Shown here: in pieces, positions 3 through 30,346 of the stretch | Position numbering within the stretch: position 1 is the first letter of the stretch | Layout: each line of letters starts with the position of its first letter | DNA from: Eubacterium sp. | Lineage (GTDB): Bacteria > Bacillota > Clostridia > Lachnospirales > Lachnospiraceae | Assembly (NCBI GenBank): GCA_017433825.1 | Contig: JAFRGL010000007.1 | Coordinates: forward strand, 61,359 to 125,358 | DNA length: 64,000 bases | Direction: 5' to 3' | Made by a program: the position numbers and the translations under genes | The notes under the pieces: model-generated | Told to the model about the DNA's origin: nothing | The model's database searches: none | The model's input: the letters and a program-made list of their open reading frames with translations, nothing else

Positions 3-3000
3 CTGAAGAAGGAGAATTCCGGCAACATTAAGATTACGCTGCTGGATGAACAGACCATCTTCCTGCAGACGCTCAGCAGCCACATTGCCGTTGACCTGGC
101 AGGCGACTTCTGGTCCTACACCGTAACGGACGGTGTCTACAGCTGGACGAGAATCGGAAACGAAACCGACAATCCCAAGGCGGTTGTAGCGGGCCAGGAC
201 GGCAAACTGGATGTTTACTACAACAGCACAAATTATGACACTGTCAGACGGCCCAAAGCTTTGACGAACCCGACCGGGTATACCATGAAGATGCAGACAA
301 TCCGTCCGCAGCTTCTGACCGACCATATCGCGGTTGATTTGAACGGCGACTACTGGTATTTCGAAGAAAATACGGCCGATGCCAGTCTGGTCTGGACGAA
401 GATCGGCAACGCAGCCGACAACCCGGATGCGGTGGTTGTTAAAGCAGGAGAAACCAAAGTTAACTACAATGGCATCTGCTATCTGGAGACCCAGCATAAA
501 GCCGATGACAACGGCGACATGGTGCTCTACCATATCCTGCCTGTTTTTGATAAGAACGGCAATAAGACCGGTTCTATCAAGGCTGGTTCCGACGGTACCG
601 TAACCGGTATCGACGCAGAGTTTACCGAGAAGCTTCTGAAAGATCAGTCCGGAACAGATTTCCGTATTGAGGAGATTGAAGCCGCACAGAATGTAAACAT
701 TACACTGGCGGACGACAAGAGTTCCATCCTGGACGGCGATGCTTTCGCAGGCAAGGCAGATGACAATGACATCAAGGCCGGCGGCATCCTGACGGTAGCC
801 TCCGACAGTGACGGCAGTCTCGGCAAACCGAATGACCGGCTTGAGATTTCTGCCCGGGATACCCTCCAGAAGAACCTGCAGGGTGATGCCATCGTAGCCA
901 TCAACACCTACCTGTATTACGATACCGGCGATGTTGTCATTAACAGCAATCTGATTGTCGACAACGTGGACTGGAGCGTTATTACCAAGGACGGCAGCGT
1001 TGTCTTCGCGGATTCGGCAGAAGCGGAAGAGGCCAAATATAACCTGACGGTTATTAACGGCGGAAGCGCTGAAATCAGAACCAACAAACTGGATGACAAT
1101 GGCAATATAAGCGAGAACGCGGAAGCTGTAAGCGAGGGTGCCATCCGGATTAAGGAACTGGTCGTTTCCGGCAGCGGAACCATCGAATCCGCCGGCGGAA
1201 CGACGGAGGAAAGAACCAGTATTACCGTTCTTGACGCCGGCGGCGAAGCTTCCGGCAGCGGCAGTATTGAAATCGAAAATGCGGTCGTCGGCACGGAAGA
1301 CAAGCCGGAGGGCATCTTACAGGCAACGGCCGGCACAGACATTACCTTAGGCGAGAGCCTTACCGTTACGGGCGGCAGCGCGGTTCTTACGGCCGGCGGA
1401 GACATTGCGGCAGGCAATGACATCACCGAAAAAGACGGCAGCGTGAAACTTACGGCAGACGGCAGCATTTCCGCAGGAAATGACCTTACCGTTACGGGCG
1501 GCAGCGCGGCTCTTACGGCAGGGGAAGACATTGCCGCAGGCAGTGACGTAACCGTTTCCGGCGGCAGCGCGGTTCTTACGGCAGGCGGAGACATCGCTGT
1601 GGGCGAAGATCTCGCGGTAACAGACGGCAGCGCGGCCCTAACAGCCGGCGGCAGCGTCACCATCGCGGATGATGTGGCTGCAGACAAGGCAAAAGCCGAA
1701 ATTACAGCCGGCGGCAGCTTCGAAGCAACCAATATTGCGGCTGTAAACGGCAGCACCGTCAAAGCGGAAGCAGCTGAAAACAGCACGGTACACGAAATCC
1801 GTGCGGTTGACAGCACCGTATCTGTCGCAGCAGGCGGCAACAACACCTTCGACAATGTTATGACCAAGGGCAGTGCGCTGACCCTGACGGCCGAAAGAGG
1901 CCTTCTGGGCATGCGCGAGGAAGTGCACCTGGACGGCAGCACGGAAGGCGGTACGGACTTCGGCGAAGAAGGACAGCGAGCCTTTATCAAAGTTGACGCG
2001 GATGATACCGATGCAACAGCCTCCGTTACCTTAAGCGGTGCTTCCATCGGCCTGCCGTACAACAGGCTTATCGTGGATATTCCTGAGGCTGTAACGCTGA
2101 AGGTTCCCGAAGTTGGCGATCTGTATGTGGATGCGCTGGATATTACACCGAAGACCGCTGCGGGAGAGGATGCGGCGCTTTCTGCCGGCGACCTCTGCTA
2201 CGGCATTGAAACTGCGGTAATCAACAATCCCATCGGAAATGATTACACAGCCCAGGAGGTGGAGACCGGTGAAGAAATCACGGGCGACTACCTCGAGCAT
2301 ATCAAAGAGGCTGCCTATGCGACCGAACTGCCCTTCACCAACAATGAAGAGCTGGCAGACTGGCTGGCCGAACGCCTCGGCGACGACTGGAAGGATAAAG
2401 TCGACACAGCTGCGCTGCAGCAGATGATCGACGACCTGCAGGCGGAAATCGACGCGAAATGGCCGGAAGAGGATCCGGAGAATCCGTCTGAAGATCCGGA
2501 GAATCCGTCTGAAGATCCGGAAAAACCGGATGCCGGCGGTGAAGGCGGCGAAGAACCGGAAGAAGATCCGCTTCTGACAGCAGCCAAAGAAAAACTGGAA
2601 GAACTGCAGACCCTTTATGACAGCCTGACCACGGAAGAAGAGGACGAGGAGCTTACCGAAGAAGAGATTACCGCGAAGAAGGCGGAAATCCTTGAGAAAC
2701 TGCTCGACCTTGAGACCGAAGAGGGCAGCACGGCCACATTGATTCCGGACAAGGCAGACCTTATCGGAAGCCTGCTTACGGATGAGGAAAAAGCGGCCAT
2801 CGCCCAGGATGTCAAAGACAATGCGCAGATTCCGGAAGAGGCCGAAAACGGCTATACCGGTGAAACACCCAAAACGCTTCATGTGGAAATCGGCACCAGC
2901 ACCAGACAGACAGACCTCTTCAATGAAGGCAGTATTGACATCACGGTAACCGGAGGCACGGATGGTTCAGATCTCACCGCGAACGATATCCGTTCACATG

Positions 3001-6000
3001 CCGGCGACGTGACCATTAACGTAGAAAACGGCAGCATCCGCTCGACGGATGAAGGCGCTGACGGTGCGGAAACCATTTACGGCAGAAATATCAGCCTGAC
3101 CGCTTCCGAAGATATCGTCGGCAGCACCGATACCCTCGAAATTGCCCAGGCGGGCAACAAGCCGGTGGTGACGGTTGCGGACAGCGACAGCACCCTGGCA
3201 GACGGCTCCGTCACCGGACGCATCCATCAGGATGAGAACGGACAGTGGGTCATCGATACGGTTGTAAGCTATGACTGGGTACGCAAGGTTGTGGAAGATG
3301 ACGAGGCGATACGTCTTGACGCGGAAGCAGAAAACGGAAGCGCTGACCTTACCCGGACAAACGGCGACCTTAACATCGGTACCGTAAAAGCGGGCGAAGA
3401 CGTTACCCTGACAACCCAGGGCAACGTAAATGACGCCAGGACCGAAGAAGAAAAGGCAGCCGGTGCACAAAATATCACAGCCGGAAATGATGCAGCTGTG
3501 AACGCCGAAAACGGCGCTGTCGGCGCGGAAGATGCGCCGATCGAAGTAAATGTCGGCAGACAGATGACAGTGGATGCCGAAGAAGACATCAACGTAACAT
3601 CCGGCGAAGATCTTGCCATCACAGCGGATACGCAGGACGGTGTTGTAAATGTTCATTCCGACAAGGATCTGACACTGGACAATACCGAAAAGGCTGCCGG
3701 CGGCACAGGCGACCTGAATATTAAGGAAGCTACAGCAGGCGGCAATGCCGATATTACGGCGGCGGGCGACGCGAACATCACGGAAGCTGCCGCAGGCGGC
3801 GATATGGACATCACAGCCGGCGGCGACGCGAACATCACGGAAGCCACAGCAGGCGGTACGGCTGCTGTTAAGGCGGACGGCGATATTACCGGCGGCGGCA
3901 CCGTATCGGCGGATACCATCAATCTTGCGGCAGATGCGGACGGCGACGGCGACGGCGCAGTCGGCACCAAGGACAACCCGGTTTACGTGGATACCGCTTC
4001 CGGCAGCACCGGCAAGGGTACCTTAAGCGCTTCCGGCACGGAAGTGAACGTGAAAGAGCTGACCGGAGACCTGGTAATCGAAGACGTTACCGCAGACGGC
4101 GACGCGCAGATTACCGCACCGGGCGATATCACCGACAACAACGGCGGCAGCGCCGGCAAGGAAGCGGCCGACAAGGAGAAAGAAGCTTCCGATAAGCAGA
4201 ACCTCGCGAATACGGCGGCTGACCAGGCGGAAATCCTGGATAAGGAAGCCACCGCACTGGAGGAAGAAGCGGCCAAAGCCAGAGAAGAAGCCAATAAGGC
4301 CAAAGAAGAGGCCGATACGGCCCGCCAGGAAGCAAATGCGGCCGAAAAGGCAGCAGAAGACGCAGCTAGGGCGGCAGAAGATGCAGCCAAAGCGGCGGAA
4401 GACGCAGCCAAAGCTGCAAAGGATGCGGCTGAGCAGGCGAAGGAAGCCGAAAAGGCAGCAGCCGATGCGGCCCAGACAGCCAAAGACGCGGCGAAACTGG
4501 CAGATGAAAAGGAAGCTGCAGGAGCAGCGGATGCCGCAGAAGCCAGACAGGCAGCAGAAGACGCAGCCAAAGCGGCAAAAGATGCAGAGGATGCTGCGAA
4601 GACCGCCGCGGATACTGCAAAGACAGCTGCAGAAACAGCCAAAACTGCGGAAAAGACAGCCAAAGAAACCGCTAAGGAAGCCGAAACACTGCAGAAAGAA
4701 GCGGAAAAAGCCGACAAGACCGCAGAAGCACTGGAGAAGACTGCCGGCGAGAAGGAAGAAACCGCAGCCGGCAAGGAAAAGACGGCGGCAGACGCCCGGA
4801 AAGAAGCTGACGATAAGGCAAAAGAAGCCGCAGACAAGCAGAAAGAAGCCGATGATGCCAAGGCAGAAGCGGAAGCAGCCAAAGAAGCGGCGGCAAATGC
4901 CGACCCGGCGGTTACCACAGGCGGAGACCTGGATATCAGCGCGGGCGGCAGTATCGGAACAAAAGACGACCCGCTGGATACCGACATCGGCGGCAGCCTC
5001 ACGGCAGGCGCGACAGGCGACATCAACATCTCCAACAAGGGCGATTTGAACATCAAGGATCTGGATGCCGACAAGAATGCGGCGGATGACCGGGATGTGC
5101 AGCTTGTTGCCGGCGGCGACATCAGTTCCGACAAGACCATCACCGGCGGAAATGCCGATATCAGTTCTCTCGACGGCAATATCGGAAGCAAGGACAACCC
5201 GCTGAATCTGGATGTGGACTCCTTAAGCGGCACGGCAGCCGGCGACGCGGCCATCACCAACAAGGGTGACCTGGAAGTCGGCGACCTTAGCGTCGGCGGA
5301 GAGCTCGACCTTACAGCAAACGGCGATATCACCGCAGGCGACAAGGCGGACGGCACCGCAAACATCACCGCGGATACAGCAGTTATTAACGCGAACGGCA
5401 ATGTGGGCTCAGCCGACAAGCCGCTTGACCTGGATGTGAACAACCTGACCATCAACGGCAAGGATATTGACATCCATACGATTTCGGATACCGCGATTGA
5501 CAGTATTACCGGCAAGGACATTGACATTACCGCAGACGCTGATATTACAGCCGGAGACGGCGATGTGAACATTACCGGTGATAATCTGAACATTGACGCT
5601 TACGGCAGCGTAGGCGAGGAAGATAAGCCTCTCACCGTACAGGTAACCGGCGATGTAAATATCACCAGCCTGCATGGCAAGACAAATGTGAAGCGCGTAT
5701 ACCCGAAGAACAATAACAGCAGCGATACGGATACGGCAGATGAACAGCCGTGGTACGGCATCCTACTTTATGATGATAAGATGGAGCCCGCACCGAAGAG
5801 AGTTGCCGAACTGGAACCGGATGTTGACCTTACAGACCTGTTTGCGGATGAAGAATTCAAGGAAGAACTTGTCCGCAGACTCGGCGATGAAGAAAAAGTA
5901 CTGAAAGCCGACCTTATCCTGAACGACGGTCCGGACAAACGGATCATCCTAAGGAAGCTGAAAGACGGTTCCGATGCCTACAACAAACTGGCGGACGAGC

Positions 6001-24667: not shown

Positions 24668-24693
24668 CTCCGCATATGGGGGTTATAAACGCA

Positions 24694-25935
24694 ATGAAAA
24701 GGACGAAACGAATCCATAAAATAATACCGGTCTGCATTCTTCTGGCAGCCCTTCTGGCTATTCCTTCCTTTGCGGGAACGCAGGAAGAGATAGAGGAAAC
24801 ACGGGCTGAACAGGCGGAAACAGCCGGAGAAATTGCCAGCACCCAGGAGCGCCTGGCCGCGCTGGAAGCCCAGAAGGGCAATGACGAAGCTTACCTGAAC
24901 GAACTCTACAGCCAGCTGGAGACGCTGTCGGCGGAGTTTGAGCAGCTGGAAAGCGACTATCAGGCAAAGCAGGAGGAACTGGCGCAGATCCGGGATAATC
25001 TGGCGGCAGCAAGGGAAAGACAGGCTGTCCAGTATGCGGAAATGAAGCTGCGCATCCAGTATCTGTACGAATCCGGTACGGGAACGGGCTTCCTGGAAGC
25101 GCTGTTTTCATCGGAAAGCTTTTCCGAATTCCTGAACAAGACCGATATGGTTAGCCAGCTGACCAAATATGACCGGGACATGCTGACCGCTTATGAAGAA
25201 ACCTGCCTGTCCATTGAGGCGCAGGAAGCAGAAGCGGTGGCGCAGCAGGAGGAAATCCTCCGCCTGCAGGAAGAGTGTACGGCGAAGCGCCAGCAGATTA
25301 ACGAAATTTATGACGCAGTTTATCTGGAAATGCAGGAATGCATTGCGAATATAGATGCGGCTGAAGGCGAGCTTGCGGCCCTTTCCGCCCGTCTGGCGGC
25401 TCAGGATGAACACCTGCAGATGCTGTTAATCCGTTCCTACGAGGAGGAGGCAGCAGCCAGGGCGGCGGCGGAAGCGGCGGCAGAGGCGGCCAGGAACCAG
25501 GCAGCCGCCGAAGCAGCGGCACAGGCAGCCGCGCAGCCTTCCGAGAGCAGTGTGCCGGCTGAAACCTATACGCCCGAACCGGAGTATACGCCGGATCCCG
25601 CGCCTGCACCGGAACCCGAACCCGAGCCGGCACAGCCGTCATCCCCGGGCAATATGCGTTACCTGGGCACCTTTACCCTGACGGCTTACTGCAACTGCGC
25701 GAAGTGCTGCGGCAAGTGGGCCGGCGGCAATACCGCTTCCGGCAAATATCCCACCGCGAACCATACAGTGGCCATGGGCGGCGTGCCCTTCGGCACACAG
25801 CTGTACATCAACGGCATGGTTTACACCGTTGAAGACAGGGGAACGCCCTACGGCTGGGTGGATATTTACTTCAACACCCACGGGGAAGCGCTGCAGTTCG
25901 GCATGCGCTCCGCAGACGTATATATCATTGAATAG
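24694..25935 (+). CDS. Secreted coiled-coil protein with C-terminal 3D domain
   Basis: A 413-aa exported protein. A signal peptide occupies residues 1-~28 (KRIHKIIPVCILLAALLAIPSFAG). A PcsB/CwlO-like coiled coil (~30-270) is followed by an Ala-rich helix, a Pro/Glu linker, and a 3D domain at the C-terminus (LTAYCNCAKCCGKW, VEDRG, VDIYF). The three conserved aspartates of 3D domains are present, as in lytic-transglycosylase-like cell-wall enzymes such as YabE and YuiC. It therefore probably cleaves or remodels peptidoglycan outside the cell. The ATG at 24,694 is chosen over one 18 bases upstream because it is better placed after GGGGG and gives a standard signal peptide. Confidence 0.87.
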   Translation: MKRTKRIHKIIPVCILLAALLAIPSFAGTQEEIEETRAEQAETAGEIASTQERLAALEAQKGNDEAYLNELYSQLETLSAEFEQLESDYQAKQEELAQIRDNLAAARERQAVQYAEMKLRIQYLYESGTGTGFLEALFSSESFSEFLNKTDMVSQLTKYDRDMLTAYEETCLSIEAQEAEAVAQQEEILRLQEECTAKRQQINEIYDAVYLEMQECIANIDAAEGELAALSARLAAQDEHLQMLLIRSYEEEAAARAAAEAAAEAARNQAAAEAAAQAAAQPSESSVPAETYTPEPEYTPDPAPAPEPEPEPAQPSSPGNMRYLGTFTLTAYCNCAKCCGKWAGGNTASGKYPTANHTVAMGGVPFGTQLYINGMVYTVEDRGTPYGWVDIYFNTHGEALQFGMRSADVYIIE

Positions 25936-25945
25936 TAATCCTGAT

Positions 25946-25972
25946 TTCCCGGCCGGCTTGCCCGGCCGGGAA
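25946..25972 (+). terminator. GC-rich hairpin after the 3D-domain gene
   Basis: An 11-bp perfect stem, TTCCCGGCCGG / CCGGCCGGGAA, 10 bases after the stop. It lacks a true U-tract (TTGTATT follows). Confidence 0.5.
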
Positions 25973-25988
25973 TTGTATTCCGTCTTAA

Positions 25989-26390
25989 TCTTCATATATA
26001 CCATCATCTGAACACACATCAGTACCACCACTTTTTCTTGATTTCACCAATCTCTTCGTACGCAAGACCGCTTCATGGGCGATTAGTACCGCCAAAATCT
26101 AAAAATCTTGTTTTATCTTCGTACAAACGACCATCCAAAACCGTACCAGTACTGCTGCTTTTCTTTCAATTCGCCAATCCCTTCGTACGCAAGACTGCCT
26201 CGCAGGCAGCCAGTACTGTCAAAATCTAAATATCTTGTTTTATCTTCGTACAAACGACCATCCAAAGCCGCATCAGTACTGACACTTTTTCTTGATTTCA
26301 CCAATCCCTTCGTACGCAAGACCGCTGCATAGGCGATTAGTACCGCCAAATCCTCACACATCTAACTTAATCTTCGTAATAATACTAAAT
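25989..26390. repeat. 127-bp tandem repeat array, upstream arm
   Basis: Three copies of a 127-bp unit: CTTCGTACGCAAGAC starts at 26,054, 26,181 and 26,308. Each unit has two CTTCGTAC boxes 63-64 bases apart (the second CTTCGTACAAACGACC, e.g. 26,117) and a box of the type AGTACCGCCAAAA. The first copy is partly degenerate, and the tail (26,371-26,400) has two copies of TCTTCGTAATAATACTAAA. No protein-coding frame is convincing on either strand. The same unit recurs downstream of the next gene. Confidence 0.85.
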
Positions 26391-26490
26391 CTTCGTAATA
26401 ATACTAAAGATTCCATGCAAATCAAATTTTAAAATACGTCATTTCAAAATCATGTCTATAAAATTCATATTTTCAAAAGGAGGAAACCAA

Positions 26491-27291
26491 ATGAGCAGAC
26501 AGGAAGAACTTGTCAGATTAATGCAGGAGGAAAAAACAAAGCTGGAGGCTGTCATTGAACAGGCGGAAAAGAGACTGAAAAAAGCTCCCGAAGGGAGCGT
26601 CAGGATAGCGAAATGCCGCCGCTATCTGCAGTTTTTCCTGAGGAACGATCCGGCAGATAAAAGCGGAAATTACATTCCCTCGAAAGAGAAGAGACTTGTC
26701 GATGAACTGATTCAGAAAAAATATGACAAAAAGCTGATCAAGTCAGCAGGGGAACAGCTGGAAGCAGTTAACCGGTTTCTCAGACAGTATGATCCGGATG
26801 GTCTGGATGAATGTTATAATCAGATAATCCCAGGGGTCAGAGACCGGCTTTTCTCAGCGGAGGAGCCGGATGAAGTCTATGCGCAAAAATGGGAAGCACA
26901 GAAGTACGAAGCCAAACCTTTTTCTGAAGACAGCCCGGAGCATTTCACACAAAAGGGAGAGAGGGTACGGTCCAAATCAGAGGTTATGATAGCGAATGCC
27001 CTGTACCATGCCGGCATTCCCTATCATTATGAATGTCCGCTTTTCCTGGAAGGCACGCTGCTGCATCCTGATTTTACAATACTGCGTGTCAGGGACCGAA
27101 AAACCTTTTACTGGGAACATCTGGGAATGATTGATGATACCGCTTACCGGAACGATGCTTTCTCAAGAATCAGAATGTACGAAAGGAATGGCCTGTTCCC
27201 CGGAGACCGGCTTCTGCTGACTGCCGAATCTTACCGTCAGCCCTTAAACCTTGCTGTGGTAAACGCCTGGATAGATCGTTTTCTGCTGTGA
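26491..27291 (+). CDS. PD-(D/E)XK-like nuclease-fold protein, function unknown
   Basis: A 266-aa protein with a Lys/Glu-rich helical N-terminal half and a C-terminal domain (~150-266) with a restriction-endonuclease-like residue pattern: Glu164 in RSKSEVMIANAL, Asp194 in LLHPDFTIL, then Glu209 and His211 in FYWEHLGM. This matches E...PD...ExK, with His in place of Lys. The start at 26,491 follows AAAGGAGG; an upstream in-frame ATG lacks a site. The gene is less GC-rich than its neighbours and is flanked on both sides by the 127-bp repeat family. The assignment is by motif only; a non-catalytic member is possible. Confidence 0.65.
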   Translation: MSRQEELVRLMQEEKTKLEAVIEQAEKRLKKAPEGSVRIAKCRRYLQFFLRNDPADKSGNYIPSKEKRLVDELIQKKYDKKLIKSAGEQLEAVNRFLRQYDPDGLDECYNQIIPGVRDRLFSAEEPDEVYAQKWEAQKYEAKPFSEDSPEHFTQKGERVRSKSEVMIANALYHAGIPYHYECPLFLEGTLLHPDFTILRVRDRKTFYWEHLGMIDDTAYRNDAFSRIRMYERNGLFPGDRLLLTAESYRQPLNLAVVNAWIDRFLL

Positions 27292-27384
27292 AATCAGTCA
27301 TTTTTATGCTGGCTCTCAGTAAACAAAAAGCTCATTTTCTCGGTGCCTGCCAGGTTTTTATAACTGCGGCAGAATGCAGCGGCG

Positions 27385-27725
27385 TCAGGGCAGCCAGTAC
27401 CATGAAATCCTATAAACTTATCTTTGGCTTCGTACATATCACCAACTGAGATCATCTTAATACCGCTTCTTTTTCTTGGTTCTATCAACCCCTTCGTACA
27501 CAAGACCGCTGCGCGGGCAGCCAGTACCGCCAAAACCTCACAATCCGGTTTATATCTTCGTATGCGGTGCCTGTAGGATGTCTGCCAGTACCGCCAAAAA
27601 GCCATTATTATGTAAAATCATAGTACTATCCGTCTGCGAGAGGCCTGCTGGTACCGCCAAAATGTTATGAAAATTCAATTTCCTTTGTACAAAGCATCAG
27701 GAGCGGGCACGCTGGTACAGCTAAA
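27385..27725. repeat. 127-bp repeat family, downstream arm (degenerate)
   Basis: Same orientation as the upstream array. CTTCGTAC boxes occur at 27,428 and 27,492 (64-base spacing as upstream) and CTTCGTATG at 27,556. AGTACCGCCAAAA boxes lie near 27,525 and 27,590 and GGTACCGCCAAAA near 27,650, with decayed copies near 27,395 and 27,710. Between the PD-(D/E)XK gene and priA (27,292-28,126) I see no credible gene. Confidence 0.75.
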
Positions 27726-28008
27726 AGGCTACAAAAAGACATTTCTCTGTGTACTAAACGCAGCATTTTGGCATATAAGGCAAAATATGGCTGTTTCCGG
27801 CACTTCGGCGGGCATGATAAGCCTGCCTCAGGCAAATAAAAGCGGCGTGCCGCCAATGCCGGGGTCGTTCCCTTGACAGAAGGAAGGATACTTAATAAAA
27901 TAAAATGATTAGAATATGACAAGGATGACAATCCTGTCCGCGGCGGGGAGATGAAATCTTCCAAGAGAGAAGCCGCAAAAGATAAAAGAATCCCGGAGGC
28001 CGGAATGA

Positions 28009-28084
28009 AAACTGCCGCAGCCGGGTCTGTGAATGGTAAAACTGTCCCACGGGCCAGGGAAAAATAAACTGCCGCAGCCGGGTC
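28009..28084. repeat. 19-bp direct repeat upstream of priA
   Basis: AAACTGCCGCAGCCGGGTC occurs exactly at 28,009-28,027 and 28,066-28,084 (57-base period), with a partial copy (AAAACTGTCCCACGGGCC) from ~28,038 between them. Confidence 0.7.
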
Positions 28085-28126
28085 CGCAAACGAAAAATGC
28101 CGGCAGGCAGAAAGGGAGGCGGAGAA

Positions 28127-30346
28127 GTGTACGCTGACGTGATTGTAAATATCGCTGCGTCCGATCTGGACAGAAGCTTCCAGTACCGTGTCCCGGAAAG
28201 CCTGGCGGACAGGGTTTTTGAAGGAAGCCGTGTGGTCGTGCCCTTCGGACAGGGAGGCCGGACCACGGAAGGCTATGTGATCAATCTGGACAGCGAGCCG
28301 AAGATAGAGGAAGACCGTATCAAGGACATCTTGTCCGTACCCGGAAACGCCGTGAACGTGGAACACCGGCTGATGCAGCTGGCCGCCTGGATCCGGCGCA
28401 CCTGCGGGTCCACCATGATTCAGGCCATTAAAACCGTCATGCCCGTGAAATTCAAGGCAAAGGAGAAGACGGAAAGAAGCATCACCTTTGCAGGGACGGA
28501 TGAAAAACTGGCGACGGTGATTGAGGAATGCAAGAGAAAGCATATGACTGCAAGGCTGCGGCTGTTTTATTATCTGTCCGAATACCGCAGCATTTCCTGG
28601 AAAGAGGCGACAGGCAGCCTGAAGCTTCCCGCCGCGGCTTTAAGGGAACTGGAGGCGCAGAACCTGATACGGATCAGCGAAAGCACGGTTTACCGCATGC
28701 CGCAGACGGATGTTTCCGGTGACTCCGGGGAAGCAGAGGCGCCGCTGAATGAAGAACAGCAGCAGGTGTATGACGGTATTCTGGAAGAATGGGAAGACCG
28801 TGACAGGCCTTCGCTCATCTTCGGCATTACCGGCAGCGGCAAGACCCACATATACATGAAGCTTATCGAAAAGGTGATGGCGGAAGGCAAAGACAGTATC
28901 CTCCTGATACCGGAGATTTCGCTTACCTGGCAGACCGTGAAAAGGTTCTACGCCCGTTTCGGGGATAAAGTCTGCGTACTGCATTCCCGGCTTTCCGCGG
29001 GCGAACGCTCGGACCTCCTGTCCCGGATGGACAAAGGAGAAGTAAACCTGGTCATCGGCCCCAGGTCCGCCCTTTTTTCACCTTTCAAGAACCTGGGGCT
29101 TATCATCGTGGACGAGGAGCATGATTCCTCCTACGAAAGCGAGCTCACCCCCCGCTACCATGCCGCGGCAACCGCCGTGGAAAGAGGCAGGATCGAGCAT
29201 GCCCATGTGGTCTTAGGTTCCGCAACCCCTTCGGTGGAGTCGGCCTACAAGGCGAAAACCGGACAGTATGCACTGTTCCGCCTGGAAAACCGTTACGGAA
29301 GCGCCGTACTGCCGGAGGTGGAAATCATCGACATGAGAAAGGAACTGGCGGAGGGCAACCGGTCCATCTTCAGCCGCAGGCTGTACGCGGCAATGGAAGA
29401 GCGCCTTGCGGCCGGGCAGCAGATCATGCTGTTCCTGAACCGGAGAGGCCATACCGGGTTTATTTCCTGCCGGAGCTGCGGGTACGTGGTCAAATGCCCC
29501 CACTGCGACGTGGCGCTGACACTGCACAGGAACGGAAAGCTTATCTGTCATTACTGCGGGTATTCCGTGAAAAATATGAAAATCTGCCCCTCCTGCGGTT
29601 CGCCGTATATCGGCGGCTTCAAGGCGGGCACCCAGCAGGTGGAAGACCTGGTGAAGAAATGCTTTCCGGACGCAAGAGTCTTAAGGATGGACAGCGATTC
29701 CACCAGGGAGAAGGACAGCTACGCGAAAATCCTCTCGGAGTTTTCAAAAGGCGGTGCGGACATTCTCATCGGCACCCAGATGATCGTGAAAGGCCACGAT
29801 TTCCCGAAGGTTACCCTGGTGGGCATCCTGGCTGCGGACACCTCCCTTTTCGCTTCGGATTACCGGGGCGGGGAACGCACCTACCAGCTGATCGCCCAGG
29901 CCTGCGGCCGGGCTGGCAGAGGCGCTTTGCCGGGGCTGGCAGTGGTTCAGACCTACCATCCGGACGACCCGGTGATTACCGCGGCGGCGGATGCCGATTA
30001 CGACAGCTTTTTTGAAAGCGAGATGGAGGGCAGAAGCCTTCTGGGCTATCCGCCGGCAGGCGCATTGCTGGAAATTCATGCCTCCTGCCCGGACGAACAG
30101 CTTCTGCAGACGGCCATGGCGCACGCGGCGGATTTCCTGAAAAGGATTGTAAAAGGGGAGAATACGGTCATTTTAGGGCCGGCTCCCGAAAACATAGCAA
30201 AAATCAAAGACAGCTACCGCAGCATTATTTATGTGAAGGAAGCATCAAAGGAAGAAATAATCCGGCTTCGGTCCGGACTGGAGAAATATATCCGGATCAA
30301 CCGGGGCTTTGACAATATCAGCATCAGCTACAACAACGGAAAATAG
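28127..30346 (+). CDS. priA: Primosomal replication-restart helicase
   Basis: A 739-aa superfamily 2 DNA helicase that reloads the replisome at stalled forks. The 3'-DNA-binding domain is N-terminal. Helicase motifs are GITGSGKTHIYMKL (Walker A), VDEEHDSSYES (DEEH) and GSATPSVESA. Eight cysteines bind two zincs between about residues 450 and 500 (CRSCGYVVKCPHC, CHYCG, CPSCG). The GTG at 28,127 is chosen because AAAGGGAGGCGG sits just upstream and VYADVIVNIA is the usual N-terminus; an ATG 30 bases earlier has no site. It is followed 9 bases later by def, the standard order. Confidence 0.96.
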   Translation: MYADVIVNIAASDLDRSFQYRVPESLADRVFEGSRVVVPFGQGGRTTEGYVINLDSEPKIEEDRIKDILSVPGNAVNVEHRLMQLAAWIRRTCGSTMIQAIKTVMPVKFKAKEKTERSITFAGTDEKLATVIEECKRKHMTARLRLFYYLSEYRSISWKEATGSLKLPAAALRELEAQNLIRISESTVYRMPQTDVSGDSGEAEAPLNEEQQQVYDGILEEWEDRDRPSLIFGITGSGKTHIYMKLIEKVMAEGKDSILLIPEISLTWQTVKRFYARFGDKVCVLHSRLSAGERSDLLSRMDKGEVNLVIGPRSALFSPFKNLGLIIVDEEHDSSYESELTPRYHAAATAVERGRIEHAHVVLGSATPSVESAYKAKTGQYALFRLENRYGSAVLPEVEIIDMRKELAEGNRSIFSRRLYAAMEERLAAGQQIMLFLNRRGHTGFISCRSCGYVVKCPHCDVALTLHRNGKLICHYCGYSVKNMKICPSCGSPYIGGFKAGTQQVEDLVKKCFPDARVLRMDSDSTREKDSYAKILSEFSKGGADILIGTQMIVKGHDFPKVTLVGILAADTSLFASDYRGGERTYQLIAQACGRAGRGALPGLAVVQTYHPDDPVITAAADADYDSFFESEMEGRSLLGYPPAGALLEIHASCPDEQLLQTAMAHAADFLKRIVKGENTVILGPAPENIAKIKDSYRSIIYVKEASKEEIIRLRSGLEKYIRINRGFDNISISYNNGK

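Follow-up and report, generated by a model that had tools for sequence, protein, structure and literature searches.

Helically spaced arrays of inverted boxes accompany a predicted PD-(D/E)XK protein family in Lachnospiraceae

Several described bacterial systems pair an enzyme gene with repeats that lie next to it. Those closest to the case treated here are the repetitive extragenic palindromes (REP), grouped in bacterial interspersed mosaic elements (BIME), with their RAYT enzymes: the repeats alternate regularly outside genes, each enzyme lies beside its own repeat type and co-varies with it, and copies scattered elsewhere accompany the gene (PMC2817692). Here, we analysed a stretch of 64,000 nucleotides from Eubacterium sp. 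(Lachnospiraceae; assembly GCA_017433825.1, contig JAFRGL010000007.1, positions 61,359 to 125,358), hereafter the window, in which a gene for a 266-amino acid protein lies between two arrays of short inverted boxes. An original prediction, made from the window alone, had read this locus as a nuclease-like gene bracketed by one family of 127-bp repeats. The protein belongs to an unnamed family of about 265 amino acids, most of whose genes are accompanied by similar arrays with periods that fall on whole turns of the DNA helix. With slightly less than even confidence, we read gene and array as a two-part system, a selfish pair of the REP/RAYT-like kind that is built on an unrelated enzyme.

Of these REP/RAYT features, regular alternation, an adjoining enzyme gene and co-variation are paralleled by the nuclease/array pairs, and dispersal together with the gene is paralleled in some genomes, which makes REP/RAYT the nearest working analogy. 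The system is not REP/RAYT by membership, as both enzyme and repeat type differ. RAYT is a transposase of the IS200/IS605 type, whereas the enzyme here has a predicted PD-(D/E)XK fold and an N-terminal domain without a known fold match; the IS200/IS605-type (HUH/Y1) transposase family is absent among the 25 of 39 Pfam families listed for 62 members. REP sequences are short palindromes headed by GTAG, whereas the boxes here are separated half-sites (e.g., CAGCGG-N20-CCGCTG) on a helical grid, and they occupy 10 loci in the best genome, whereas REP sequences mostly reach tens to hundreds of copies (PMC2817692). Type III toxin-antitoxin loci resemble the system in layout only, with a small nuclease gene after a tandem array that varies in sequence from one relative to another (PMC5086642); their repeats are about 34-36 nt long, whereas the periods here are 53, 63 and 74 on a DNA-helix grid. 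They also differ in that the system here shows little base-pair compensation, has gene-free and downstream arrays and encodes another protein fold. Unlike type III toxin-antitoxin loci, the window has no terminator-like site on the + strand between array and gene, according to a consensus scan. The phage-defence candidates PDC-S68 and PDC-S69 of PADLOC have a homologous nuclease domain, which in PDC-S68 is joined to a RecD-like helicase in a protein of about 1,200 amino acids. Phage homing endonucleases and DUF2726, Vsr and TnsA-type PD-(D/E)XK enzymes are the nearest structural neighbours in viral models, and we know of no cognate array for any of them. A literature search whose scope excluded preprints and most subscription papers returned no description of this system and no paper naming PDC-S68. 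The partnership of protein and repetitive DNA looks like one that is so far undescribed.

The family was matched in 126 of 397 sampled Lachnospiraceae genomes (E ≤ 1e-15) and in 31 of 98 genomes of a smaller set that includes the window's own; these matches include nuclease domains of larger proteins (e.g., in G041; G, L and C numbers are our handles for genomes, loci and contigs), and raw counts reach 8 per genome. Arrays were called from ungapped self-match scores at lags of 30-259 in the 700 bp upstream of each gene, with a score of at least 20 counted as an array. Set 1 comprised the 64 loci that remained once the duplicate L046, the helicase locus L152 and short fragments had been removed, and 63 of them were testable. 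The hold-out comprised 60 further loci, of which two duplicates were dropped, leaving 57 testable upstream and 58 downstream. Upstream arrays were found at 45 of 63 genes in set 1 and at 43 of 57 in the hold-out, whereas only 3 of 93 control flanks at 2.2-2.9 kb and 0 of 58 hold-out gene bodies passed the test. Downstream arrays are less frequent (17/63 and 9/58). Among 51 relatives outside the 265-amino acid family (40 with open frames of more than 600 codons), the test was passed upstream by two of 15, both at lag 36 with a score of exactly 20, and downstream by none of 51. The association with repeats noted in the original prediction is a specific one. The idea that homologues are always flanked by the same repeat held for the geometry, which is mostly the same; as relatives carry different box sequences, they are not flanked by one same repeat. 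Outside Lachnospiraceae, genome G066 of another family of the order has six members (L144-L149); the lag test upstream was passed by L145, whose boxes are TGCATGC, and by L149. Two members, L150 (G034:C11) and L143 (G023:C4), are broken (split match, one internal stop), and arrays still lie upstream of them.

The array periods cluster at 53, 63 and 74 bp, which correspond to whole helical turns. In set 1, lags peaked at 52-54, 60-64 and 73-74, and a scan of moduli from 8 to 14 bp gave a best modulus of 10.6 with a phase near zero (R 0.82, n = 45). At a modulus preset to 10.55, the hold-out gave R 0.75 and a phase of -0.02 (p = 4e-11), and its own best modulus was 10.65. For the 88 arrays combined, the best modulus was 10.60 bp (R 0.78; phase -0.016 at 10.55), and 78 of them deviated from a whole turn by no more than 2 bp, as against an expected 47%. 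When each of the 50 clusters formed at 50% identity was represented by a single member, R was 0.77 with a median p of 2e-13; coarser clustering gave p = 2e-8 for 33 clusters at 45% identity and p = 0.006 for 8 clusters at 40%.

A box motif was found in 86 of the 88 upstream arrays, and in 59 of these 86 the boxes are regularly spaced in alternating orientation, as judged by a filter on alternation and score. Alternating + and - boxes were seen at many loci (24 hits at L105, 20 at L043, and 35 at L040, counted there in the ±800-bp flanks), whereas at other loci the top motif did not exceed what shuffled DNA gave. Box columns resemble one another more closely than their flanks do (0.8-0.9 versus about 0.4 at 46 loci), the boxes having been picked by that very property. 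The box sequences are mostly unrelated across the bacterial family, yet the layout recurs. Related arrays with different periods could be compared in 15 pairs, which are not independent (box similarity of at least 0.62, periods differing by at least 8 bp). In 11 of these pairs, one of the two spacings between boxes is constant to within 2 bp and the other is shifted by 9-11 or 19-20 bp (e.g., 22/22 with 40/51). L047/L123, L225/L219 and L241/L225 fall outside this rule; in L127/L103 one spacing is constant, whereas the other is spoiled by missing units.

Box sequence varies together with the N-terminal part of the protein. In the 59 of 86 arrays used for this comparison, box similarity correlated with N-terminal identity (Mantel r 0.36, p = 0.0005), also after C-terminal identity was removed (partial Mantel 0.33, p = 0.0005), whereas C-terminal identity given N-terminal identity had no such relation (0.02, p = 0.31). 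All three pairs with an N-terminal identity of at least 0.65 have a box similarity above 0.7, as compared with a fraction of 0.00 of 851 pairs with an identity below 0.25. This fits the suggestion in the original prediction that the gene may be part of a repeat-targeting system.

Arrays without a gene occur in several genomes that carry the gene elsewhere. In G250, CAGCGG-N16-24-CCGCTG is found 17 times at 10 loci, one of which is that of the gene, with a gap of N20 in 16 cases and N21 in one. Seventeen other species of its genus, some of them incomplete, have 0 or 1 match each (reversed control 0-2), and a search of the same species by DNA found no G250 element except one weak 210-bp match. 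Over the 397 genomes this pattern is noisy, with at least one match in 205; G250 is at the top with 17 and the next genome has 9. In G001, a sister of the window's species, the window's boxes are found on four further contigs, in groups of 2 to 13 boxes. A third pattern, TACGGTT-N20-22-AACCGTA, occurs in 33 of 397 genomes, of which three have at least three matches (12, 5 and 3; reversed control at most 2 per genome), and each of these three carries a member with that box. Gene-free arrays together with a member bearing the same box were found in G250, G001, G034, G390 and G351, and wide dispersal of the repeat without a link to the gene family, which would have spoken against the original prediction, was mostly not seen.

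Nineteen of the 20 regions examined contain no family gene at E ≤ 1e-3, and the remaining one, L308, is a gene locus. Gene-free periods, some at low score, are 62-63 in G250, 64 in G001 and 52-53 in G034 and G390; those of their gene-linked counterparts are 62 by boxes or 64 by top lag (L205), 64 (L101) and 52 (L107). By a crude call of open reading frames (ORFs), no gene-free array lies within a long ORF. Most of the single TACGGTT hits seem to be chance matches or copies of one 34-base word that recurs. This palindromic word (TACGGTTACTGTA... and near variants) is found once per genome in G033, G163, G176, G293, G306, G365 and G376 and is probably unrelated to the arrays. Another dispersed repeat of G250, unrelated to the boxes, is about 30-100 bp long and partly tandem; it lies at L205 505-606, C2:68319-68514, C5:9911, C6:55556 and C24:4742.

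Unit number varies at one locus, and some arrays may have moved. Two gene-free arrays of G250 have 117 bp in common at 97.4% identity. L112 and L205, which belong to two genera, match at 84% identity along 1109 bp; the match starts roughly where the array does on the left and stops 6 bp after the stop codon, and the flanks do not match. At one orthologous gene-free locus, the count made by eye varies within the genus between a single degenerate pair in G471 and 9 units in G390, with species-specific spacers and unchanged boxes; carriage of the gene was established for G034 and G390. The proposal of a mobile cassette therefore received partial support, from the unit shared across genera, the near-identical gene-free arrays and the occurrence at several loci. 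A clean empty site for the window's element was not obtained: five further species of the window's genus showed no match to the gene in the available DNA upstream of priA, and the 3D gene was also missing there or the contig ended (3D, priA, rpsI, guaA, tuf and HD are presumed identities from our reading of translations). Of 71 gene pairs with at least 60% identity, 13 have a neighbouring ORF in common, in flanks of about 1-3 kb. Nine of 125 loci lie behind rpsI, as does the gene-free array L295, and guaA is on the upstream side in six and tuf in three. These repeated neighbours may reflect a target preference or an old shared position. A number of members are no more than about 1 kb away from the end of their contig, and five of 11 species examined in G250's genus have a contig that stops no more than 500 bp behind guaA, as if local repeats break short-read assembly.

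By fold and domain homology, the 266-amino acid protein is assigned to the PD-(D/E)XK superfamily, in agreement with the nuclease-like fold first proposed for it. Its AlphaFold2 model (pLDDT 96.6, pTM 0.82) has an N-terminal helix, a beta-hairpin and a long helix (residues 3-99), a linker and a C-terminal PD-(D/E)XK domain (about 150-266). The modelled core at about 160-245 is alpha-beta-beta-beta-alpha-beta (H162-173, E178-180, E184-186, E189-191, E195-199, E204-211, H217-232, E241-245). The C-terminal part is matched by the PADLOC models PDC-S68 (E = 2.6e-28) and PDC-S69 (E = 5.4e-7). Foldseek found seven viral models at E ≤ 0.001, the best a homing endonuclease of Bacillus phage Bobb (E = 1.7e-4), and weak matches in the PDB, none at E ≤ 0.001 (Bax1 at E = 0.02, then R2 retrotransposon and MunI). 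The predicted nuclease pattern E164/D194/E209 is also borne out, as among 62 aligned relatives E164 is invariant, together with S161, E181, P193, H210 and G212, and D194 and E209 are conserved in at least 90%. The window protein has no significant match in Pfam or NCBIfam and none in the PDB by sequence or by profile; across the 62 members, Pfam matches are weak and scattered, with TPD (PF14811) in 4 (best E = 0.0015). Modelled separately, the N-terminal part reached a pLDDT of 96.4. An integrase-type arm-binding domain was considered for this part and is unsupported, its best resemblance being to prefoldin coiled coils.

At the window locus (Table 1), the order is 3D gene, hairpin, upstream array directly after the hairpin, 266-amino acid ORF, decayed array and priA. 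As a protein with 70.6% identity occupies the same place in a sister species, the ORF is real; its guanine-plus-cytosine content is 0.48. Each unit consists of an A box (AGTACCGCCAAAA-like) followed about 32 bp later by a B box (TCTTCGTAC-like), both containing GTAC in inverted relation, and A and B boxes each recur every 63/64 bp. Repeats do bracket the gene, and their box spacing of 63-64 bases is kept even where the DNA between boxes has mostly diverged. The period of 127 bp was recovered, whereas the true unit is about 63.5 bp and has two inverted boxes instead of being a direct repeat. Instead of the eight or so boxes first counted, there are about 12 A boxes (6 + 6) and 13 B boxes (7 + 6). 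The word GTACYGYCAAAA has 7 matches with at most one mismatch in the window, six of them at this locus, against 0.73 expected, and none of 100 shuffles reached 7. In the whole genome, a 332-bp piece of the array has two matches and GTACCG-N22-30-CTTCGTA has three (reversed control 2), all at this locus. CRISPR, already discounted in the original prediction, is ruled out, as constant repeats with unique spacers were not seen and the units, spacers included, have diverged from a common sequence. The same genome has a second member on a different contig, which is 41% identical to the window protein and has other boxes (TTCTACCC/GGGTAGAA) in 64-bp arrays on both sides; it sits between transfer RNA genes and what we take to be an HD-type gene. 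In sister G001, L101 has about 0.8 kb of extra DNA relative to the window between nuclease gene and downstream array (3802-4717 in gene-oriented coordinates).

Table 1. Positions in the window of the gene, its arrays and boxes, and other features.
Feature	Positions	Strand	Description
ORF upstream of hairpin	24676-25935		From the ORF list; presumably a 3D-domain protein
Terminator-like hairpin behind upstream 3D gene	25946..25972	+	Stem of 11 pairs, 9 of them G-C; T-rich after
Upstream array	25989..26398	.	About 6.5 units of about 63.5 bp; one A and one B box per unit, inverted
B boxes, upstream	25989, 26053, 26116, 26180, 26243, 26307, 26371
A boxes, upstream	26021, 26085, 26212, 26339		By scan, at most 4 mismatches
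Decayed A boxes	26148, 26275 (upstream), 27459 (downstream)		Found by eye
Tandem Repeats Finder array	26029-26350		Period 127, 2.5 copies, score 413
PD-(D/E)XK-like gene	26491..27291	+	266 amino acids
Additional A-box match	26964		By the same A-box scan; within the gene
Downstream copy	27389-27542		From repeat search; same orientation, 70% identity to reference copy
Downstream array	27396..27754	.	Six boxes of each type, 63/64 bp apart; orientation as upstream, spacers largely decayed
A boxes, downstream	27396, 27523, 27587, 27650, 27714		By scan, at most 4 mismatches
B boxes, downstream	27427, 27491, 27555, 27618, 27682, 27746
Off-register B-like words	26390, 27455, 27474		From the same scan as the B boxes
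28-bp tandem repeat	28003-28102		AAACTGCCGCAGCCGGGTC-like, separate; between downstream array and priA
Several tandem repeats	1358-4856		Periods 63, 57, 42 and 21 bp, all divisible by 3; may encode a long repetitive protein or several

In the mechanism that we propose, the first part would be a double-stranded DNA array of short inverted boxes on a helical grid, in which a rigid two-box site of fixed spacing is repeated. As the linkers vary by whole turns, all sites would face one side of the helix. The second part would be the adjoining protein, whose N-terminal part would read the box and whose PD-(D/E)XK domain would act on the array. Dimers may bind each two-box site, and adjacent dimers may interact along one face. 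Nicking or cutting within arrays could then lead to repair that duplicates and deletes units and occasionally copies a few of them to another intergenic site, with the outcome that array and gene would persist as a selfish pair. In its fullest form, this would be a self-propagating partnership in which a novel N-terminal domain reads boxes on one face, the nuclease makes arrays grow, homogenise and seed intergenic loci, and private specificities co-evolve by dozens; we consider this form possible but somewhat doubtful.

A number of observations weigh against this proposal. No upstream array was detected at 18 of 63 genes in set 1 and 14 of 57 in the hold-out, and 9 hold-out downstream repeats lie off the helical grid. 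The lysine of the (D/E)XK motif is absent after E209 (E209-H210-L211-G212); PD-(D/E)XK members with a migrated or missing lysine exist. The N-terminal model has no convincing match in the PDB (best E = 0.13, a prefoldin-like coiled coil), so the case for DNA binding by this part comes from co-variation. There, the N-terminal part is favoured in the partial Mantel test by being less conserved, which weakens the argument and does not remove it. Dispersed repeats do not go with the gene everywhere: the window's own genome lacks gene-free arrays of the window type, member L187 of G431 has a TACGGTT box and its genome no hit to the strict pattern, and G372 has a six-box gene-free TACGGTT array and no member at E ≤ 1e-15. 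As this array lies at a contig start, an assembly gap is a possible explanation for the missing member. Regarding mobility, the array of L112 scored 15, below the threshold of 20, no target-site duplication was seen where edges were checked by eye (although the L112/L205 unit has sharp ends), and no clean pair of filled and empty sites was found. The genus-wide gene-free locus is vertically inherited, which also fits maintained regulatory sites.

Such sites are central to the main rival, in which the arrays are operators and the protein an autoregulator with a small regulon at the gene-free arrays, its nuclease fold serving solely to bind DNA or for some unrelated purpose. In the 59 strict arrays, the median distance from the last box to the start codon is 54 bp (range 2-318), so that boxes may overlap the promoter region, the gene-free arrays L297 and L303 end 23 and 68 bp upstream of an ORF, and one gene-free locus is retained across a genus. 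However, the up to 35 box hits at L040 are more than an operator needs, arrays also occur 3' of genes, L304-L307 lie between convergent ORFs, and E164, D194 and E209 are invariant or nearly so. We consider operator arrays unlikely, while taking them seriously.

An addiction or defence module, in which the array restrains the nuclease as a sink or sensor and loss or modification of the array frees the enzyme against chromosome or phage DNA, is improbable in our view. It would suit the homology of the nuclease domain to the C-terminal domain of PDC-S68 and PDC-S69, and a gene with adjacent repeats resembles type III toxin-antitoxin loci (PMC5086642). No recurrent partner gene was found, the largest of the 14 neighbour clusters listed being housekeeping by our reading of translations, and this design does not need gene-free arrays. 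Matches in mobile elements are also few: patterns from the window protein found no relatives in IMG/VR, three phage records match, and none of the nine matching plasmid records reaches 80% coverage, those annotated being AAA ATPases or helicases. A phage origin of the gene was likewise rejected, as IMG/VR gave no relatives with these patterns and only one of the three phage records, an unverified faecal scaffold, covers more than 80% of the protein.

The repeats might instead be transcribed and bind the protein as RNA, in the manner of type III toxin-antitoxin systems. The array does lie directly 5' of the gene, and its repeat sequence varies among relatives while length classes persist, which is also a trait of those systems (PMC5086642). 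This reading is disfavoured because box changes are mostly one-sided (330 of 353); changes alike on both sides number 18, which is above the 6.8 expected by shuffling and yet few. In addition, the periods track the B-DNA repeat of 10.6 bp, which RNA has no evident reason to do, arrays occur 3' of genes and without genes, and no Rfam family matches near its gathering score in 25000-29500, which also disposes of a known RNA there. We thus regard an RNA array as very unlikely. Ordinary minisatellites gathered beside genes by chance would account for the variable unit number at one locus and for G372, but hardly for the excess of upstream arrays over controls, the helical grid, the alternation of inverted boxes and the co-variation with the N-terminus, and we give this explanation next to no weight.

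If the proposed partnership of nuclease and array is right, it would add to transposases and homing endonucleases another route by which an enzyme and a DNA repeat spread together, and it would supply a new sequence-specific DNA reader in many naturally occurring protein/box pairs. If spread driven by the enzyme were proven, the system could fairly also be classed as a variant of the REP/RAYT type. The helical-grid rule across unrelated sequences is what cooperative binding on one face of the DNA would directly predict, and the arrays give the nuclease domain of PDC-S68 and PDC-S69 a context from which its substrate may be guessed. For the Lachnospiraceae of gut and rumen, the arrays may account for repeats that break short-read assemblies of their genomes.

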